Of a DNA stretch of 64,000 bases, positions 1 to 56,175 are shown in pieces. The DNA is from Verrucomicrobium sp. GAS474 (GTDB lineage Bacteria > Verrucomicrobiota > Verrucomicrobiia > Methylacidiphilales > GAS474). Below the pieces are notes generated by a model. That model saw nothing but the letters and a program-made list of their open reading frames with translations, did not search any database and was not told where the DNA came from. Both the position numbers and the translations under genes were made by a program. The stretch spans positions 806,001-870,000 of the forward strand of contig NZ_LT629781.1 of assembly GCF_900105685.1 (NCBI RefSeq), given 5' to 3'. Positions within the stretch are counted from its first letter, which is position 1. Every line of letters begins with the position of its first letter.

Positions 1-120
1 AGGCGCCGCCAAAGCGCGTCCGCCTAGTTCAGGCCCTCAGAACAGGAGGTTCCAGGAGGGGCGAAGCCCCTCTTGGGCTATAAAGCGGGTTACCTCCAGC
101 TGTACCGGGTCGACCCCGCA
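1..120 (-). repeat. Dispersed repeat, partial copy C (cut by window edge)
   Basis: This non-coding stretch before the first gene is a diverged, incomplete relative of the two ~297-bp repeats at 52711-53007 and 55878-56175. Read on the minus strand it shares the core GTACAGCTGGAGG (93-105), the hairpin GAGGGGC-GAA-GCCCCTC (56-72) followed by CTGGA, and GCCTGAACT (near 26-34), in the same order as copy A. The left end is lost at the window boundary and the right end fades out before 185. I see no convincing coding capacity in it. Confidence 0.6.
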
Positions 121-185
121 AGCCCCAACGGGCCGCCCCACCCCAGGATTGTCTTTTACACAGCGACCGTTACGATCCCGACGTC

Positions 186-38493: not shown

Positions 38494-39597
38494 ATGGATT
38501 CCACCCCCCGCCTTTACGTCATCGACGACGATCCGTTCTGCTTCGAGATGATCGCCCTCCTCCTGCGCGGCGAGGGCTACGAGCTCCGCTACCTCGACGA
38601 CAGCGAGAAGGCCTTCGACCAGATCCGGGAGGGCCGCCCCCACGTCGTCCTCAGCGACCTCATGATGCCGAAGGTCTCCGGCATCGAGCTTTGCAAGCAG
38701 CTGAAGGCCGATCCCCAGACCCGGGACATCCCCGTCATCCTCCTCACCGGGATCGACGACGAGGCCTACCTCACCCGCTGCGTCGACGCCGGGGCCGACG
38801 ACTTCCTCGACAAGGGGATCTCCGCCCCCGTCCTCCGGGCGCGGATCCGCTCCATGCTCCGCATCCGGGCCCACTACGATCTCCTCCGCGAGGCGATGCG
38901 GCTCCGCGAGGACTTCGCCAACATCGTGATCCACGACATCGGCAACCCGCTGGCGACGATCGTCATCGAGACGGACGACCTCCTCGCCTGCGATCCCCGC
39001 GCCGACCAGGTCGAGAGCCTCACCACGATCAAGAACAGCACCCGCCGCCTCCGCGACATGGCCCACGACATGCTCCTGCTCGCGAAGATCGACCAGGGGA
39101 AGCTCCACCTCGACCTCGCCGAGTACGACCTCGCCGCCCTCATCGCCGAGGCCGCGGGCCACGCCGCCCCCCTCGTCCGCCGCCGGAAGCTGAACCTCCA
39201 GGTCACCCGCTCGGGCGAAGACGGGGACGCCCATCCCCCCGTGTGCGAGTGCGACCGAAACCTCGTCCTCCGCGTGATCGACAACATCCTCTCCAACGCC
39301 ATCAAGTTCTCGCCGCCCGGCGGCCGGGTCGAGATCGGCCTCCATTGCCTCGGCGGCAGCGAGGGGGTTCCCGGGGGCCGCTTCCGCATCGAGATCGAGG
39401 ACGAGGGAACCGGGATCCCCGAGGCGCTCCGGGAAAAGATCTTCGAGAAATTCGAGATCGGGCAGGTGAAGCGGGAAGTCCCGCAGATCGGCCTCGGCCT
39501 CGCCTTCTGCCGCACCGCGATCGAGGCCCACGGCGGGACCATCTCCGTCTGCGAGGGCCGCTCCGGCCGCGGGACCCGGATGATTATCGATCTCTAG
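38494..39597 (+). CDS. Response-regulator/histidine-kinase hybrid (REC-HisKA-HATPase)
   Basis: A 367-residue cytoplasmic protein: a receiver domain (residues 1-125; DDDP pocket, Asp in VVLSDLMMPKVSG), a HisKA helix with IVIHDIGNPLATIV (His near 145), and an HATPase domain (~235-365; NILSNAIKFSPPGG, EDEGTGIPE, GLGLAFCRTAIEAHGG). It is transcribed away from the membrane kinase, across a 179-bp gap. It may receive phosphate from that kinase and pass it on, forming a relay; this is inferred from proximity. Confidence 0.88.
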   Translation: MDSTPRLYVIDDDPFCFEMIALLLRGEGYELRYLDDSEKAFDQIREGRPHVVLSDLMMPKVSGIELCKQLKADPQTRDIPVILLTGIDDEAYLTRCVDAGADDFLDKGISAPVLRARIRSMLRIRAHYDLLREAMRLREDFANIVIHDIGNPLATIVIETDDLLACDPRADQVESLTTIKNSTRRLRDMAHDMLLLAKIDQGKLHLDLAEYDLAALIAEAAGHAAPLVRRRKLNLQVTRSGEDGDAHPPVCECDRNLVLRVIDNILSNAIKFSPPGGRVEIGLHCLGGSEGVPGGRFRIEIEDEGTGIPEALREKIFEKFEIGQVKREVPQIGLGLAFCRTAIEAHGGTISVCEGRSGRGTRMIIDL

Positions 39598-39703
39598 GTC
39601 GCGTTAACGAACCCCGGCGGGAAACTCGATCCGGGGCCGTGGGAGGAGGGGCCGTTCCCGCTCCCGAAGGAGCGTTCTCCGCCCCCTACCCCTTCAACTT
39701 CGC

Positions 39704-51360: not shown

Positions 51361-52713
51361 ATGTCTTTAACTCCTCATTCCGCCCTCCGCCGCCGTCTGG
51401 CTCCCTCTTCCCAAGCTTCCGCCCTCTTTTCCGAACCGGCTCTCTCCGAGGCCGATCTCGATACCCTCCGCCGGATCGCCGCGGGGGAATGGGACCTCAA
51501 TGCCCGCCTCGAGTCGGGCGGCGAGATCGCCGCGACGCTGAACCAGATCCTCGAGAACCTCGCCGAGACCCTCACCGGGGCGCTCCGCAGCGGGGTCCGC
51601 CTCTACGGGAACGTCCCGCCGCTCTTCGATTTCTCCGCACAGCTGGAGGGGGCGGCGAAGACGCAGGAGGAGCGCGCCGCCCACATCGCCGAATCGGCCC
51701 GGCACATGGCGGAGCAGCTCCACGCGATCGCCGGCCGCCTCCAGGAGGCCCTCGTCTCGACCGCCGACGTCGCCGGGATCATGGCCGACCTCGACGCCCG
51801 CTCGAAGCAGATCGAGAAGGTCGTCGACCGCGTCCAGCGCGTCGCGGGGCAGACGAAGCTCCTTTCCCTCAACGCCAGCGTCGAGGCGGCGCGGGCCGGG
51901 CAGGCGGGCCGCGCCTTCGCCGTCGTCGCCCAGGAGGTGCAGAAGCTGGCCGCCGACGCCGCCGAGGCGACGACCCAGATCCGCGACGTCCTCCACGACC
52001 TCGAAACGCGGATCGGCACCGCCGTCCAGGCCGTCGGGAAGCAGGGCGACGGCAGCACGGCCCGGGCCCAGGCTCACGACATCACGGCGGCGAACACGGG
52101 GGCGAACGCCCTTTCCCTCACCGGCGTGATGGAGGGGATCGTCGAGCGGGTCCGGCAGCAGAACGGGGAGGTCTCCGAGGTCGTGCGGGACATCGCGGGG
52201 ATCGCCGGGGAGGCCCGCCTCCAGACCGAGGGGGCGGCCCGGCTGAAGGAGATGGCGAACCGCGCCCGCGAGGGGAGCGACGCCCTCATCGTCTCCCTCG
52301 GCGCGTTCCATCTCCCCGCCCATACCCGGCCCCGGGACCTCGTCGCCCGGCTGGCGCAGGACCCCGCCCTCCGCTCGATGGTCCGCCACCGGCAGGAGGA
52401 GGCGATGGCCCTCGCCGCCGAGCGGAACCGCTTCATCGAGCTCCTCTACGTCACCGACGCCTCGGGGCGGCAGGTCACCGGGAACATCGCAAAGAAGAGC
52501 GACCTCGGGACGAGCAAGGGCTTCGGCAGCGATTGGTCCCAGCGGGAGTGGTTCCGCCAGCCGATGGAGCGGCAGGCCTTGTCGCTTTCTGACATCTACC
52601 GCTCCTCGGCCTCGGATCGATTCTGCTTCACCGTCTCGGTCCCGATCCTTTCCGAGGACGAGGAGATCGTCGGGGTTTTGGCTGTCGATATTGATCTGAC
52701 GCAGTTGATTTAA
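51361..52713 (+). CDS. Soluble methyl-accepting chemotaxis-like protein with C-terminal PDC/Cache-like domain
   Basis: A 450-residue protein without membrane segments. Residues ~45-300 are chemoreceptor coiled coil, with the kinase-contact tip LSLNASVEAARAGQAGRAFAVVAQEV near 170-195. Residues ~330-450 look like the distal half of a PDC/Cache sensor: LYVTDASGRQVTGN, DWSQREWFRQPM, LSDIYRSSASDRFCFTVSVPI and VGVLAVDIDL. The sensor follows the signalling part, the reverse of classical receptors, and must sit in the cytoplasm. Its TAA stop is also the first three bases of the inverted repeat at 52711. The ATG at 51361 was preferred to a longer frame running through the gap upstream. Confidence 0.78.
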   Translation: MSLTPHSALRRRLAPSSQASALFSEPALSEADLDTLRRIAAGEWDLNARLESGGEIAATLNQILENLAETLTGALRSGVRLYGNVPPLFDFSAQLEGAAKTQEERAAHIAESARHMAEQLHAIAGRLQEALVSTADVAGIMADLDARSKQIEKVVDRVQRVAGQTKLLSLNASVEAARAGQAGRAFAVVAQEVQKLAADAAEATTQIRDVLHDLETRIGTAVQAVGKQGDGSTARAQAHDITAANTGANALSLTGVMEGIVERVRQQNGEVSEVVRDIAGIAGEARLQTEGAARLKEMANRAREGSDALIVSLGAFHLPAHTRPRDLVARLAQDPALRSMVRHRQEEAMALAAERNRFIELLYVTDASGRQVTGNIAKKSDLGTSKGFGSDWSQREWFRQPMERQALSLSDIYRSSASDRFCFTVSVPILSEDEEIVGVLAVDIDLTQLI

Positions 52714-53007
52714 GGGGTCGCGAAGGGGGGCGGTGAATGCTCCTTCGGGACCGGGCAGAGACCCTGTACAGCTGGAGGCGATCCGCACGGGTTAGACGAC
52801 GCAAGAGGGGCTTCGCCCCTCCTGGACTTGCCTCCCGGCCCTGCAAGTTAGTTTCCCCTGAGGAACGAGTGTCGCTACCGCGACGGCAGTCCCCGTCTGA
52901 TAGGCCTGAACTGTTCTGGCCGCACCGCATTAGGCCGTCCGCTTCGGGTAGAGCGCGTCCGCTAGTTCCCCTGTCCGCTTGGGAGGAGCGACGCGTCCGA
53001 GTGCGGG
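52711..53007 (+). repeat. Dispersed ~297-bp repeat, copy A
   Basis: This fills the gap between the chemoreceptor and the glycosyltransferase-like gene. It starts with TAAGGGGTCGCGAAGG and ends near GCGTCCGAGTGCGGG; copy B (55878-56175) is the same element inverted. Hairpins are GAGGGGC-TTC-GCCCCTC (52805-52821) and GTCGC-TACC-GCGAC (52871-52884). The ends are nearly identical between copies, while inner blocks are rearranged. No open frame in it looks coding. Confidence 0.8.
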
Positions 53008-53069
53008 CGGAACCCAAGCGATACGCTCCGTCCTTGTCACCCGCCTCGTCTCCCCCTTATCCTCCCGGC

Positions 53070-54824
53070 ATGATTTCCGCCGACGGCCATCGCCGGGGCG
53101 CCTGGGGCGCGTTCTTCCTCTTTGCCCTTCTTCCCCTCCTCTTCGCCCTCTACACGGGGAATGTCTGGGAGGATTACTACATCACCTACCGCAGCAGCCA
53201 GAACCTGGCGACCGGCCACGGCCTCGTCTTCCAGCAGGGGGAGCGGGTCCAGACCTTCACCTCGCCCCTCGGCGTCCTCCTTCCCGCGCTCTGCAGCGTC
53301 GTGACGGGGACGACCCACGATGACGCCGCCCTCTGGCTCTTCCGCCTGATCTCGGCCTCGGCGCTCGGCGTCGCGGGGGTCTTCCTCTACCGGATGCTCC
53401 GCCATCACGGCGTCCCGCGCGTCCCCCTCTGGATCGGCCTCCTCCTCGTCGCCCTCGACGCGAAGACGGCGGCCTTCGACACGAACGGGATGGAAAACGG
53501 CTTCCTCCTCGCCTTCCTCCTCTTCTCCTGCTGGGCGCTGACCGTCCCCGCCCGCAGCGGCCGCCCGTGGCTCTGGATCGGCCTCTCGTGGGCCGGGATC
53601 ATGTGGAGCCGTCCCGACGGCTTCATCTACGGCGGCGCCCCGGCAGCGGCGGTCCTCCTCTTCGGCAGCGGGATCGCGGCGGGGCGGGCGGGCGGGCGGC
53701 TCTGGCTCCTCCGGCAATACGCCCTCGCCCTCGGCCTCGCCGTGGCGATCTACCTGCCGTGGTTCATCGGCTCGTGGGCCTACTACGGGACCCCCGTCTC
53801 GAACACCATCGCGGCGAAGGGAGTCAACCTCCACTGGTCGTTCCTCGAAAAACTGGCGGGCAAGCATGAGGCGACTCCCGTCGCCGTCGAGGCCCCGGCC
53901 CCAGCCCCCGCCCCCGCTCTTTCCGTCCCCGCCTCGACCTCCGCACCGGTCTCCTCCCCGACGATGGCCCCCACCGGCGGGCCCGAGGCCCCCGCCCACC
54001 GCTCCTTCCTCCAGCTCGCCCACCTGAACCGGCTCCACTTCGACGCCCTCGGCCTCATCTACGCCCCGATCTACGTCCAGGCGGGAGGCTGGCCCGAGGC
54101 AGCGCGGTGCTGGGCGTGGGCCCTCGTCATCCTCGGCGGGCTGCCGCTGGTCCTCCCCGGGATGGCGCGGACGACGCGGGCGGCGGCGGCGGCCTTCCTC
54201 ATCGTCGCGGCCTACTACTGCTACATGCCCCACGCCTCGCCGTGGTACCTCCCGACGGGGGCGTGGCTCGGCTACCTCTCGCTCCTCCTCGGCGTGATCG
54301 ACCTCTACTACCGGACGGGGCTGACCCGCCGCCTCACGTGGTGCGCGGCGGCTGCCGTCGGCATCGGCGCGCAGCTCTTCCTCTTCGCCGCCGCCAGCGC
54401 CCAGCTCCGCGTGCAGCAGCACGCCATCGAGCTCGGCGTCCGCACGCCGATCGGCCATTGGCTGAAGGAGAACGCGCAGTCGCCGTCGGAGACCGTCTTC
54501 CTCGAGCCCCTCGGCTACATCGGCTACTATTCCCAGCTGAAGATGGTCGACTTCCCCGGCCTCTCCGCCCCGGAGGTCGTCGCCCTCCGCCGCCGCCTCC
54601 ACACGGACAACTGGGCCGTCCTCATCGGGGCGCTGAAGCCGACGTGGCTCGTCCTCCGGCCCGCCGAGGTGACGATGCTCAACGGCGACGATGCCGCCCT
54701 CCTCCCCGCCTACCATGCGGTGAAGACCTTCGACGCCGGGGCCGAGATCGCCGCCGCCCGGATCTACGGGAAGGGCTACCTCGAGTGCGACCAGACGTTC
54801 ATCGTCTTCCGGAGGAATGACTAA
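53070..54824 (+). CDS. GT-C-type membrane glycosyltransferase-like protein
   Basis: A 584-residue membrane protein with about eleven hydrophobic segments. The first outer loop contains WEDYYITYRSSQNLATGHGL followed by GERVQTFTSPLG, the pattern of lipid-linked-sugar glycosyltransferases of the AftB/GT-C sort, where the acidic pair is catalytic. A Pro/Ala/Ser-rich loop at ~285-325 interrupts the membrane part, and a soluble domain follows the last helix (~460-584). It probably transfers a sugar from a polyprenyl donor outside the membrane. The start was placed at the ATG at 53070, beyond repeat A. The stop overlaps the acyltransferase start by 8 bp. Confidence 0.72.
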   Translation: MISADGHRRGAWGAFFLFALLPLLFALYTGNVWEDYYITYRSSQNLATGHGLVFQQGERVQTFTSPLGVLLPALCSVVTGTTHDDAALWLFRLISASALGVAGVFLYRMLRHHGVPRVPLWIGLLLVALDAKTAAFDTNGMENGFLLAFLLFSCWALTVPARSGRPWLWIGLSWAGIMWSRPDGFIYGGAPAAAVLLFGSGIAAGRAGGRLWLLRQYALALGLAVAIYLPWFIGSWAYYGTPVSNTIAAKGVNLHWSFLEKLAGKHEATPVAVEAPAPAPAPALSVPASTSAPVSSPTMAPTGGPEAPAHRSFLQLAHLNRLHFDALGLIYAPIYVQAGGWPEAARCWAWALVILGGLPLVLPGMARTTRAAAAAFLIVAAYYCYMPHASPWYLPTGAWLGYLSLLLGVIDLYYRTGLTRRLTWCAAAAVGIGAQLFLFAAASAQLRVQQHAIELGVRTPIGHWLKENAQSPSETVFLEPLGYIGYYSQLKMVDFPGLSAPEVVALRRRLHTDNWAVLIGALKPTWLVLRPAEVTMLNGDDAALLPAYHAVKTFDAGAEIAAARIYGKGYLECDQTFIVFRRND

Positions 54825-55896
54825 GCCTCCGCTCCAGCACCCCGGCGACCCTCACTCGCTCCCGCTCCCCCGCCTCGCCTCGATCGACCTCCTGCGGGCC
54901 GTGGCGGTGCTGATGGTGGCGACGGCCCACTTCGGCCGCGCCTTCTCGGCGGGGACGGCCCAGTTCTGCGCCGATTACGGGAAGCTCGGCGTCGAGGTCT
55001 TCTTCGTCATCTCGGGCTACGTCATCCCCTACAGCCTCGCCCGGAGCGGCTATTCCCTCGGCCCCGGGAACTTCGGCCCGCTGCAGGTCTTCGCCGCGAA
55101 GCGGTTCCTCCGCATCCATCCGCCGTACCTCGCCGCCCTCGCGCTCACGCTCGCGATCACATGGCCGTGGCGGCATGCCCTCGGCCTGCCCCAGGTCGAC
55201 ACGTGGGGGAGCCTGGCGCAGAGCGCCGCCTACCTCCACTTCCCGTCGGACAACCCGGTCTTCTGGTCGCTCCTCGTCGAGCTCGAATATTACGCGCTGA
55301 TCGCCTTCATCTTCCCCCTCCTCGCCCACCGGCGGCTCGCCGTCGGGATGGCGACCTTCGGGGCGCTCCTCCTCCTCGCCCGCGTCGCGGGGGAACCGGG
55401 CGATGCGTTCCACCTGCCGCAATACCTTCCCCGTTTCGCGGTCGGCTTCGCCGTCTTTTGCTTCACCGAGGGGCGGATCGGCTGGCGGCGGCTCGCCCTC
55501 CTCCTCGCCGGGCTCTGGCTCTGGGACCGGAGCGGGCCGGAGGCGACGGCGGCCCTCCTCACCGGCCTCGCCATCGCGGCCTTCGCGAAGTGCGGCACGT
55601 GGCACCGGGAAGACCATCTCCCGCCCGTCCTCGCCCCCCTCCTCTTCATCGGGGCGATCTCCTATTCGTTCTTCCTCGTCCACCTTCCGGTGGGGGGAAA
55701 GATCCTCATCGCCCTCCGCTTCCTCCTCGGCCCCGGCGAGGCATGGGGCTTCCCCGTCTTCCTCGCCGCGCTGGCCGGCGCGACGGGGATGGCGTTCGTC
55801 TTCTACCGCCTGGTCGAAGCGCCTTGCCACCGGCTGGCGGGGAGGATGGGGACACAAAAAGAGACGCCCTCGGCTCCCCCGCACTCGGACGCGTGA
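54817..55896 (+). CDS. Acyltransferase 3 (OafA/NodX-like) membrane protein
   Basis: A 359-residue integral membrane protein of the acyltransferase-3 family. It opens with SIDLLRAVAVLMVATAHF, which holds the catalytic His, then GKLGVEVFFVISGYVIP and FLRIHPPYLAAL; ten helices follow. It O-acylates sugars of lipopolysaccharide, exopolysaccharide or other glycans. The 8-bp overlap with the glycosyltransferase-like gene suggests both act on one surface glycan. Its last six codons and stop lie inside inverted repeat B, so its C-terminus was set by the repeat. Confidence 0.85.
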   Translation: MTKPPLQHPGDPHSLPLPRLASIDLLRAVAVLMVATAHFGRAFSAGTAQFCADYGKLGVEVFFVISGYVIPYSLARSGYSLGPGNFGPLQVFAAKRFLRIHPPYLAALALTLAITWPWRHALGLPQVDTWGSLAQSAAYLHFPSDNPVFWSLLVELEYYALIAFIFPLLAHRRLAVGMATFGALLLLARVAGEPGDAFHLPQYLPRFAVGFAVFCFTEGRIGWRRLALLLAGLWLWDRSGPEATAALLTGLAIAAFAKCGTWHREDHLPPVLAPLLFIGAISYSFFLVHLPVGGKILIALRFLLGPGEAWGFPVFLAALAGATGMAFVFYRLVEAPCHRLAGRMGTQKETPSAPPHSDA

Positions 55897-56175
55897 TTCC
55901 TCCCAAGCGGACAAGGGATCTAGCGGACCCGTTCTACCTGGAAAACTTGGCCCGATCGGTAGCGCGCCATCCAAGTTCAGGCCTATCAGACGGGGAGGTC
56001 CAGGAGGGGCAGAATGCCGTCGCGTTAGCGACACTCGTTTCTTAGGGGAGATTAACTGGCATGGCCGGGAGGCAAGCCCCTCTTGCGTCTTAAAACACGT
56101 GCGGATGGCCTCCAGCTGTACAGGGTGTGTACCCGGTCCCGAAGGAGCACCCACCGCTCCCTTCGCGACCCCTTA
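55878..56175 (-). repeat. Dispersed ~297-bp repeat, copy B (inverted relative to A)
   Basis: Read on the minus strand it starts TAAGGGGTCGCGAAGG (56175 downward), contains GTACAGCTGGAGG (56121-56109) and the hairpin GTCGC-GTTA-GCGAC (plus-strand 56019-56032), and ends GTCCGAGTGCGGG. The TAA is the stop codon of the minus-strand gene at 56173-56532. The block CCCCTCCTGGA stands after the GTCGC hairpin here but before it in copy A. Confidence 0.8.

Follow-up and report, generated by a model that had tools for sequence, protein, structure and literature searches.

The inverted repeats that flank a glycosyltransferase gene and an acyltransferase gene in Verrucomicrobium sp. GAS474 are two copies, here named A and B, of a repeat family with at least 150 copies in the chromosome. 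The copies are modular in make-up, mosaic in sequence and located mainly at gene ends; one copy has an empty counterpart site in a sister species, and in the collections that were searched the family occurred in this genus alone. The explanation that we consider probable is a large family of small composite repeats, restricted to this lineage, which are non-autonomous, tolerated at gene ends and mixed by recombination, with A and B flanking the two genes by chance. Such elements would have been mobilized in trans and mixed by gene conversion, and they presumably serve no host function. The family is apparently undescribed; it belongs to the phylum Verrucomicrobiota, of which few members have been cultured. 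The genome of strain GAS474 consists of 3,763,444 bp with 65.8% GC and 3,273 ORFs (PMC5786674); the window analysed in this study, 64,000 nucleotides in length, corresponds to positions 806001-870000 of its single chromosome.

Copy number, anatomy and mosaicism of the family

Copies were detected with R1, a covariance model that covers 108 nt at the 5' end of the element. Based on this model, we identified at least 150 copies in the GAS474 chromosome, 64 copies in the sister species (G002, a MAG of the same genus assigned to uncultured Verrucomicrobium bin-317) and five weak ones in a further genome (G001). The E-values of R1 are rough, and nearly all matches scored between 74 and 122 bits; judged by these scores, the matches are no doubt family members. 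The genome-wide BLASTN count that the earlier note had proposed, with copy A as the query, gave 64 matches, so that further copies proved abundant. The family makes up about 1% of the chromosome, a repeat occurs about every 24 kb, and the copy density was clearly lower at genome positions 2.2-3.4 Mb than in the first 2.2 Mb.

Within the window, R1 matched copies A, B and C and one weak remnant, which is likely a degenerate member of the family (Table 1). Copy C, a partial repeat at the edge of the window that the earlier note had related to A and B, is a genuine family member (83.9 bits at window positions 53-154 on the minus strand), but belongs to another subfamily; a degenerate inverted partner of this copy was found at genome position 805780.

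Table 1. Repeat copies, their parts and the neighbouring genes in the window (positions are those of the window)
Feature	Position	Strand	Description
Copy A	52711..53017	+	Core with slot-2 module, 305-nt form; starts at the stop codon of a chemotaxis-receptor-like gene
Copy B	55870..56175	-	Core with slot-1 module, 306-nt form; starts at the stop codon of a 119-aa minus-strand gene
Copy C	1..154	-	Subfamily-2 element; 5' arm inside the window, remainder to the left of it (genome about 805.9-806.15 kb)
Hairpin GAGGGG-CUUCG-CCCCUC with flanks, in copy A	52801..52825	+	Sole helix with clear compensatory changes family-wide
Optional module of about 62 nt, slot 2 (after the hairpin), copy A	52828..52889	+	
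Optional module of about 62 nt, slot 1 (inside the hairpin loop), copy B	56012..56073	-	
GT-C-like membrane glycosyltransferase gene	53070..54824	+	No Pfam match; weak NCBIfam match to arabinofuranosyltransferase
Acyltransferase gene	54817..55896	+	Pfam Acyl_transf_3
Gene upstream of copy A, with MCP signalling and Cache domains	51361..52713	+	Copy A begins with its stop codon, TAA
Gene downstream of copy B, 119 aa	56173..56532	-	No family above cut-off; copy B begins with its stop codon
Weak match to the 5' arm of the family	39595..39694	-	Between gene ends; 23 bits; GGGGGCGGAGAACGCTCCTTCGGGA still readable

The anatomy of the element was derived from an alignment of 35 near-complete copies. 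The element is about 240-370 bases long and consists of a core of about 244 nt and an optional module of about 62 nt (GCCTCCCGGCC...TCGCTACCGCGACGGCA), which was found in two fixed places: slot 1, inside the central hairpin loop (as in copy B), and slot 2, just after the hairpin (as in copy A). The module was absent from 18 of the 35 copies, present in slot 1 in seven (one of them truncated), in slot 2 in seven and in both slots in two, while the remaining copy, at genome position 438847, is a hybrid that resembles a recombinant between the slots or a collapsed form of the doubly occupied element. A further (third) insert was detected near the 3' end in some copies of subfamily 2. The two ends of the element are unlike each other, with AGGGGTCGCGAAGG at the 5' end and CCGAAGCGG at the 3' end. 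The search for consensus ends that the earlier note had suggested gave different 5' and 3' ends and no consistent terminal inverted repeat. Copy 1883676 terminates in a (GA)n stretch, about 13 dinucleotides long. Arrays of shorter units, variants of GCGCTTGGGAGA and GCGTATGGGAGA, were also observed in intergenic regions between double-armed copies at genome positions 199.2, 638.0, 1669.8 and 1762.7 kb, and the same motif lies near the 3' end of core elements.

All four combinations of states were found for 721 of 861 informative pairs of two-state sites. Their share was 43% for sites less than 10 nt apart and 84-90% beyond, and linkage falls within about 10-30 nt. The copies are thus strongly shuffled mosaics. 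This mosaicism was likely caused by recombination or gene conversion, and less probably by recurrent mutation. Following insertion, short blocks would be exchanged between copies by recombination or gene conversion, giving rise to mosaics and to rearrangement at the occupied sites.

Location at gene ends and folding of the element

The gene context was assigned by a gene caller that relies on codon usage and was seeded with verified genes; all context statistics are based on it. Of 35 copies, 21 were located in convergent gaps, 12 in co-directional gaps (7 sense and 5 antisense, without orientation preference) and 2 in divergent gaps. Element-free gaps from the same loci (n=194), a local sample comprising the window and the loci around the copies, included 20 convergent, 137 co-directional and 37 divergent gaps. 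The elements were therefore enriched between convergent genes (21/35 versus 20/194; odds ratio 13, p 6e-10), and 33 of 35 full copies abutted at least one gene 3' end. Many copies, including A and B, begin exactly at a stop codon. Such flush ends are expected without any special mechanism, because convergent gaps that lack an element are only about 9 nt long (median 8.5 nt, compared with 309 nt for convergent gaps that contain an element): assuming one insertion per gap, 55% of the ends were predicted to lie within 3 nt of the stop codon, compared with 16 of 28 observed for the sense-upstream cases. We also considered a TA target within the TAA or TAG stop codons, and rejected it on three grounds: TA is missing from the 5' boundary of copies without a stop codon next to them, this boundary varies, and the short convergent gaps already explain the flush ends. 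If the elements spread as insertions, they would survive mainly between gene ends, where convergent genes almost touch and an insertion would be harmless.

The central hairpin is well conserved as a paired structure. In the alignment, 95.7% of its cells were paired and 78 cells carried changes on both sides, compared with 16 in shuffled alignments. Six base pairs showed compensatory change, the covariation score was reached in none of 500 shuffles, and the slid controls collapsed. These observations give support for the hairpin but not proof of it, because the shuffles leave the relatedness of the copies in, and the compensatory change hints at selection on some structure. In contrast to the hairpin, the whole element folded no better than dinucleotide shuffles (mean z -0.23 for the sense strand and -0.52 for the antisense strand), and a large structured RNA is therefore not indicated. 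No match of the elements to Rfam 15 was found at either the gathering or the E-value thresholds.

The preference for gene 3' ends, together with the compensatory changes and the arrangement of the module slots, which keeps the hairpin intact, would be consistent with a functional 3' element, a structured RNA that acts at gene ends as a bidirectional terminator, an mRNA stabilizer or a sponge. The earlier note had raised a dispersed structured RNA or 3' element as one of its options; the location at gene ends agrees with this option, but the use of both strands in co-directional gaps and the shuffle-like folding do not. Two convergent gaps, at genome positions 2684491 and 3067199, bear on the same question from both sides. 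Each is occupied by an element in GAS474 and in the sister species, as would be expected of a functional site, but the orientation is opposite and the sub-forms differ between the two species, an observation that simple insertion followed by inheritance also does not readily explain. Moreover, most convergent gaps carry no element, no Rfam family corresponds to it, and the family is absent from other genera of the order. Taking these results together, we regard a functional 3' RNA as unlikely, though worth bearing in mind. A related and slightly less probable possibility is a genus-specific family whose elements are modular, keep their structure and work at the 3' ends of genes regardless of their own orientation, for instance as bidirectional terminators or as insulators between convergent genes, and are renewed by constant exchange of modules with no dedicated transposase.

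The segment between copies A and B and the sister species

Comparison within the window confirmed that A and B are homologous and inverted relative to each other, as the earlier note had described, with their inner ends now refined to about 53017 and 55870. The two copies have arms of 88, 68, 61, 23, 18 and 17 nt, with complementarity of 87-100%. BLAST gives an identity of 76% between them, and the aligned columns give 82%; the longest identical block common to both is 23 nt. A 17-nt signature of the shared module had two occurrences in the window, one in each copy, compared with 0.07 expected from shuffles. A and B carry the same module of about 62 nt in different slots, and the 3' end of B overlaps the end of the acyltransferase gene. 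The identification of the enclosed genes as encoding a GT-C-like glycosyltransferase and an acyltransferase held, as did the absence of a transposase from the enclosed segment.

With facing copies and blocks of up to 23 identical nucleotides, recombination between A and B might flip the intervening segment and thereby change the expression of a surface glycan. This inversion switch, which the earlier note had proposed as a second option, appears highly improbable: the identity reaches only 76-82%, the copies represent sub-forms with different internal modules, no recombinase gene was found alongside either copy or among the enclosed genes, more than 150 other copies would be equally good partners, and both genes are read in the same direction, neither arm having a nearby promoter for an inversion to exchange.

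Next to this stands the possibility that facing elements are the ends of a composite transposon, and that the glycosyltransferase and acyltransferase genes arrived together with A and B. A facing pair elsewhere, at 1895605/1897632, is absent from the sister species as a whole together with the NPD and AlkB genes that it encloses, the flanks meeting within 20 nt; movement as a unit may therefore hold in some cases. In the sister species, the receptor gene at A and the glycosyltransferase-acyltransferase pair also occupy different contexts: the former stops at the same codon as in GAS474 and is followed by another gene with no element between them; the other two genes are adjacent, in another context, with no element beside them, and the BLAST matches there cover only the host flanks of the queries. 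The different contexts would fit a mobile unit, and the occurrence of the two enclosed genes without repeats speaks against one. Further evidence speaks against the unit. The A-B identity of 82% corresponds to only the 49th percentile of 575 copy pairs, and that of the NPD/AlkB pair to the 18th percentile, which does not suggest sister copies; the closest relatives of A are 1883676 (92%) and 1656414 (91%), and those of B are 479262 and 2684491 (84%). Neighbouring copies 0.5-5 kb apart were outward in 13 cases, facing in 10 and tandem in 15 (difference of tallies), a near-random distribution with no excess of facing pairs. The earlier note had also asked which genes lie inside pairs of copies: they were mixed and mostly belonged to housekeeping operons (ribosome recycling factor, SUF, exonuclease VII). 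Gene gain or loss and independent insertions could account for the single absent cassette. We therefore consider a composite unit decidedly unlikely. Of the non-autonomous composite mobile unit that the earlier note had put forward, the non-autonomous and dispersed character is retained (at least 150 copies, and for one of them a clean empty site in the sister species), but the composite unit is not. The glycosyltransferase and acyltransferase genes lie between A and B by chance and the pair is not a unit; given the genome-wide copy count, the apparent cassette is a coincidence. The family is thereby a caution that gene cassettes seemingly enclosed by inverted repeats arise by chance at a density of one repeat per 24 kb or so.

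At shorter distances the arrangement is different. Of 14 neighbouring copies with a spacing below 500 bp, 13 were inverted, which could be taken in favour of the composite unit and would also fit a foldback-type element, whose mobile form is double-armed with long inverted arms and whose single copies are solo arms. In short forms of the sister species (L074 and L069), a 5' arm likewise stands at each end, the two being inverted relative to each other. The arms, however, face each other in seven cases and face out in six, giving two arrangements rather than one; most copies are single, there is no common terminus, and the empty site at 2184438 points to single arms that inserted alone. On balance, a foldback-type origin seems doubtful.

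For copy 2184438 the sister species has a clean empty site: the gap is 285 nt in GAS474 and 21 nt in the sister species, with flanks that are 85 and 78% identical. At the gap of copy 1656414, the sister species holds a mini form of about 90 nt in which the module is reversed. The two neighbours of copy 1883676 (L051:2655-2959) have different partners in the sister species, indicating a synteny breakpoint. In addition, many bin-317 contigs end inside elements; short-read assemblies of the genus are therefore fragmented, and breakage at these elements should be considered when such assemblies are used.

Probable mobility, distribution and known repeat systems

No target-site duplication was detected, the longest string shared by the two flanks being on average 4.8 nt compared with 4.6 nt after permutation. 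Searches of the whole genome gave no match to Y1_Tnp (PF01797) or to the OrfB/TnpB-type zinc domain (PF07282), both with positive controls, and no match to DDE_3; a search for RRXRR (PF14239) also gave no matches, although none of its controls gave a match either. PF07282 and PF14239 served to look for TnpB/IscB homologues of IS605-type or OMEGA guide-RNA elements. Of the families represented by 79 proteins encoded between or beside copies, none of the 25 commonest was a transposase. Neither a transposase of the families searched nor a target-site duplication nor a consistent terminal inverted repeat was found, and we infer the movement of the elements from the copy number and the empty site. 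According to our preferred reading, the composite element (a core of about 244 nt with hairpins and no, one or two modules in the two fixed slots, with a further insert in some copies) would have spread as non-autonomous insertions mobilized in trans by a putative activity. The genus does have true insertion sequences; in the sister species, a gene apparently for an IS transposase (L084:5146-5928) occupies a gene end at which other genes stand in GAS474.

When 84,980 genomes of bacteria and archaea (GTDB r220) were scanned with an exact pattern of 19 specified bases, the family was detected in bin-317 contigs only; distant members elsewhere could be missed, because the pattern scan is exact. 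The same pattern had no match in viral contigs, and a plasmid search found nothing. Among the 60 relatives searched in all, R1 gave nothing in the 57 order-level relatives. The two-slot design, the mosaicism and the occupancy of the same gaps in opposite orientation make the family a good system for analysing how repeats that lack a transposase spread and are shuffled.

We compared the family with known classes of small repeats. The REP/REPIN elements, which go with RAYT transposases, are likewise palindromic repeats dispersed in intergenic regions near gene ends, but the GAS474 elements are ten times longer and have no Y1_Tnp/RAYT counterpart in the genome. MITEs such as RUP, Correia/NEMIS and ERIC/RU-1 (PMC2229807) share with the GAS474 family a small size, dispersal, lack of autonomy, an intergenic location and the ability to fold. 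RUP has terminal inverted repeats that match an IS and uses TA targets, whereas neither such termini or targets nor a partner IS was found for the GAS474 family; the absence of TA termini is a feature shared with YPAL/RU-2 (PMC2229807). Of the properties that define MITEs, presence or absence at an orthologous site was observed (copy 2184438), and terminal inverted repeats and target duplication were not.

For the mixing of modules, the nearest parallel appears to be the neisserial mosaic arrays. The NIME arrays (RS elements and dRS3; PMC3898611) are, like the GAS474 copies, mosaic intergenic arrangements of several modules associated with rearrangement. In the GAS474 family, by contrast, no dRS3-like palindrome of about 20 nt was identified between the modules to punctuate them, and there is no known phage integrase target.

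The pneumococcal BOX element (boxA-boxB(n)-boxC; PMC3049150) resembles the GAS474 family in several respects. Differences lie in the two fixed slots, which in BOX correspond to a tandem array, in the longer GC-rich core and in the phylum, and no sequence relation between the two was found by Rfam or by the 84,980-genome pattern scan, which included streptococci. Both consist of a core with an optional internal module of variable number, occur in about 100 or more dispersed copies, are enriched between convergent genes, have predicted stem-loops with the module as a separate fold, and lack a transposase of their own. BOX, RUP and SPRITE repeats of the pneumococcus show the same enrichment between convergent genes, from which their authors concluded that mobile and parasitic entities are likely (PMC3049150). 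By these features, the GAS474 family can be classed as composite small interspersed repeats that are BOX-like in kind.
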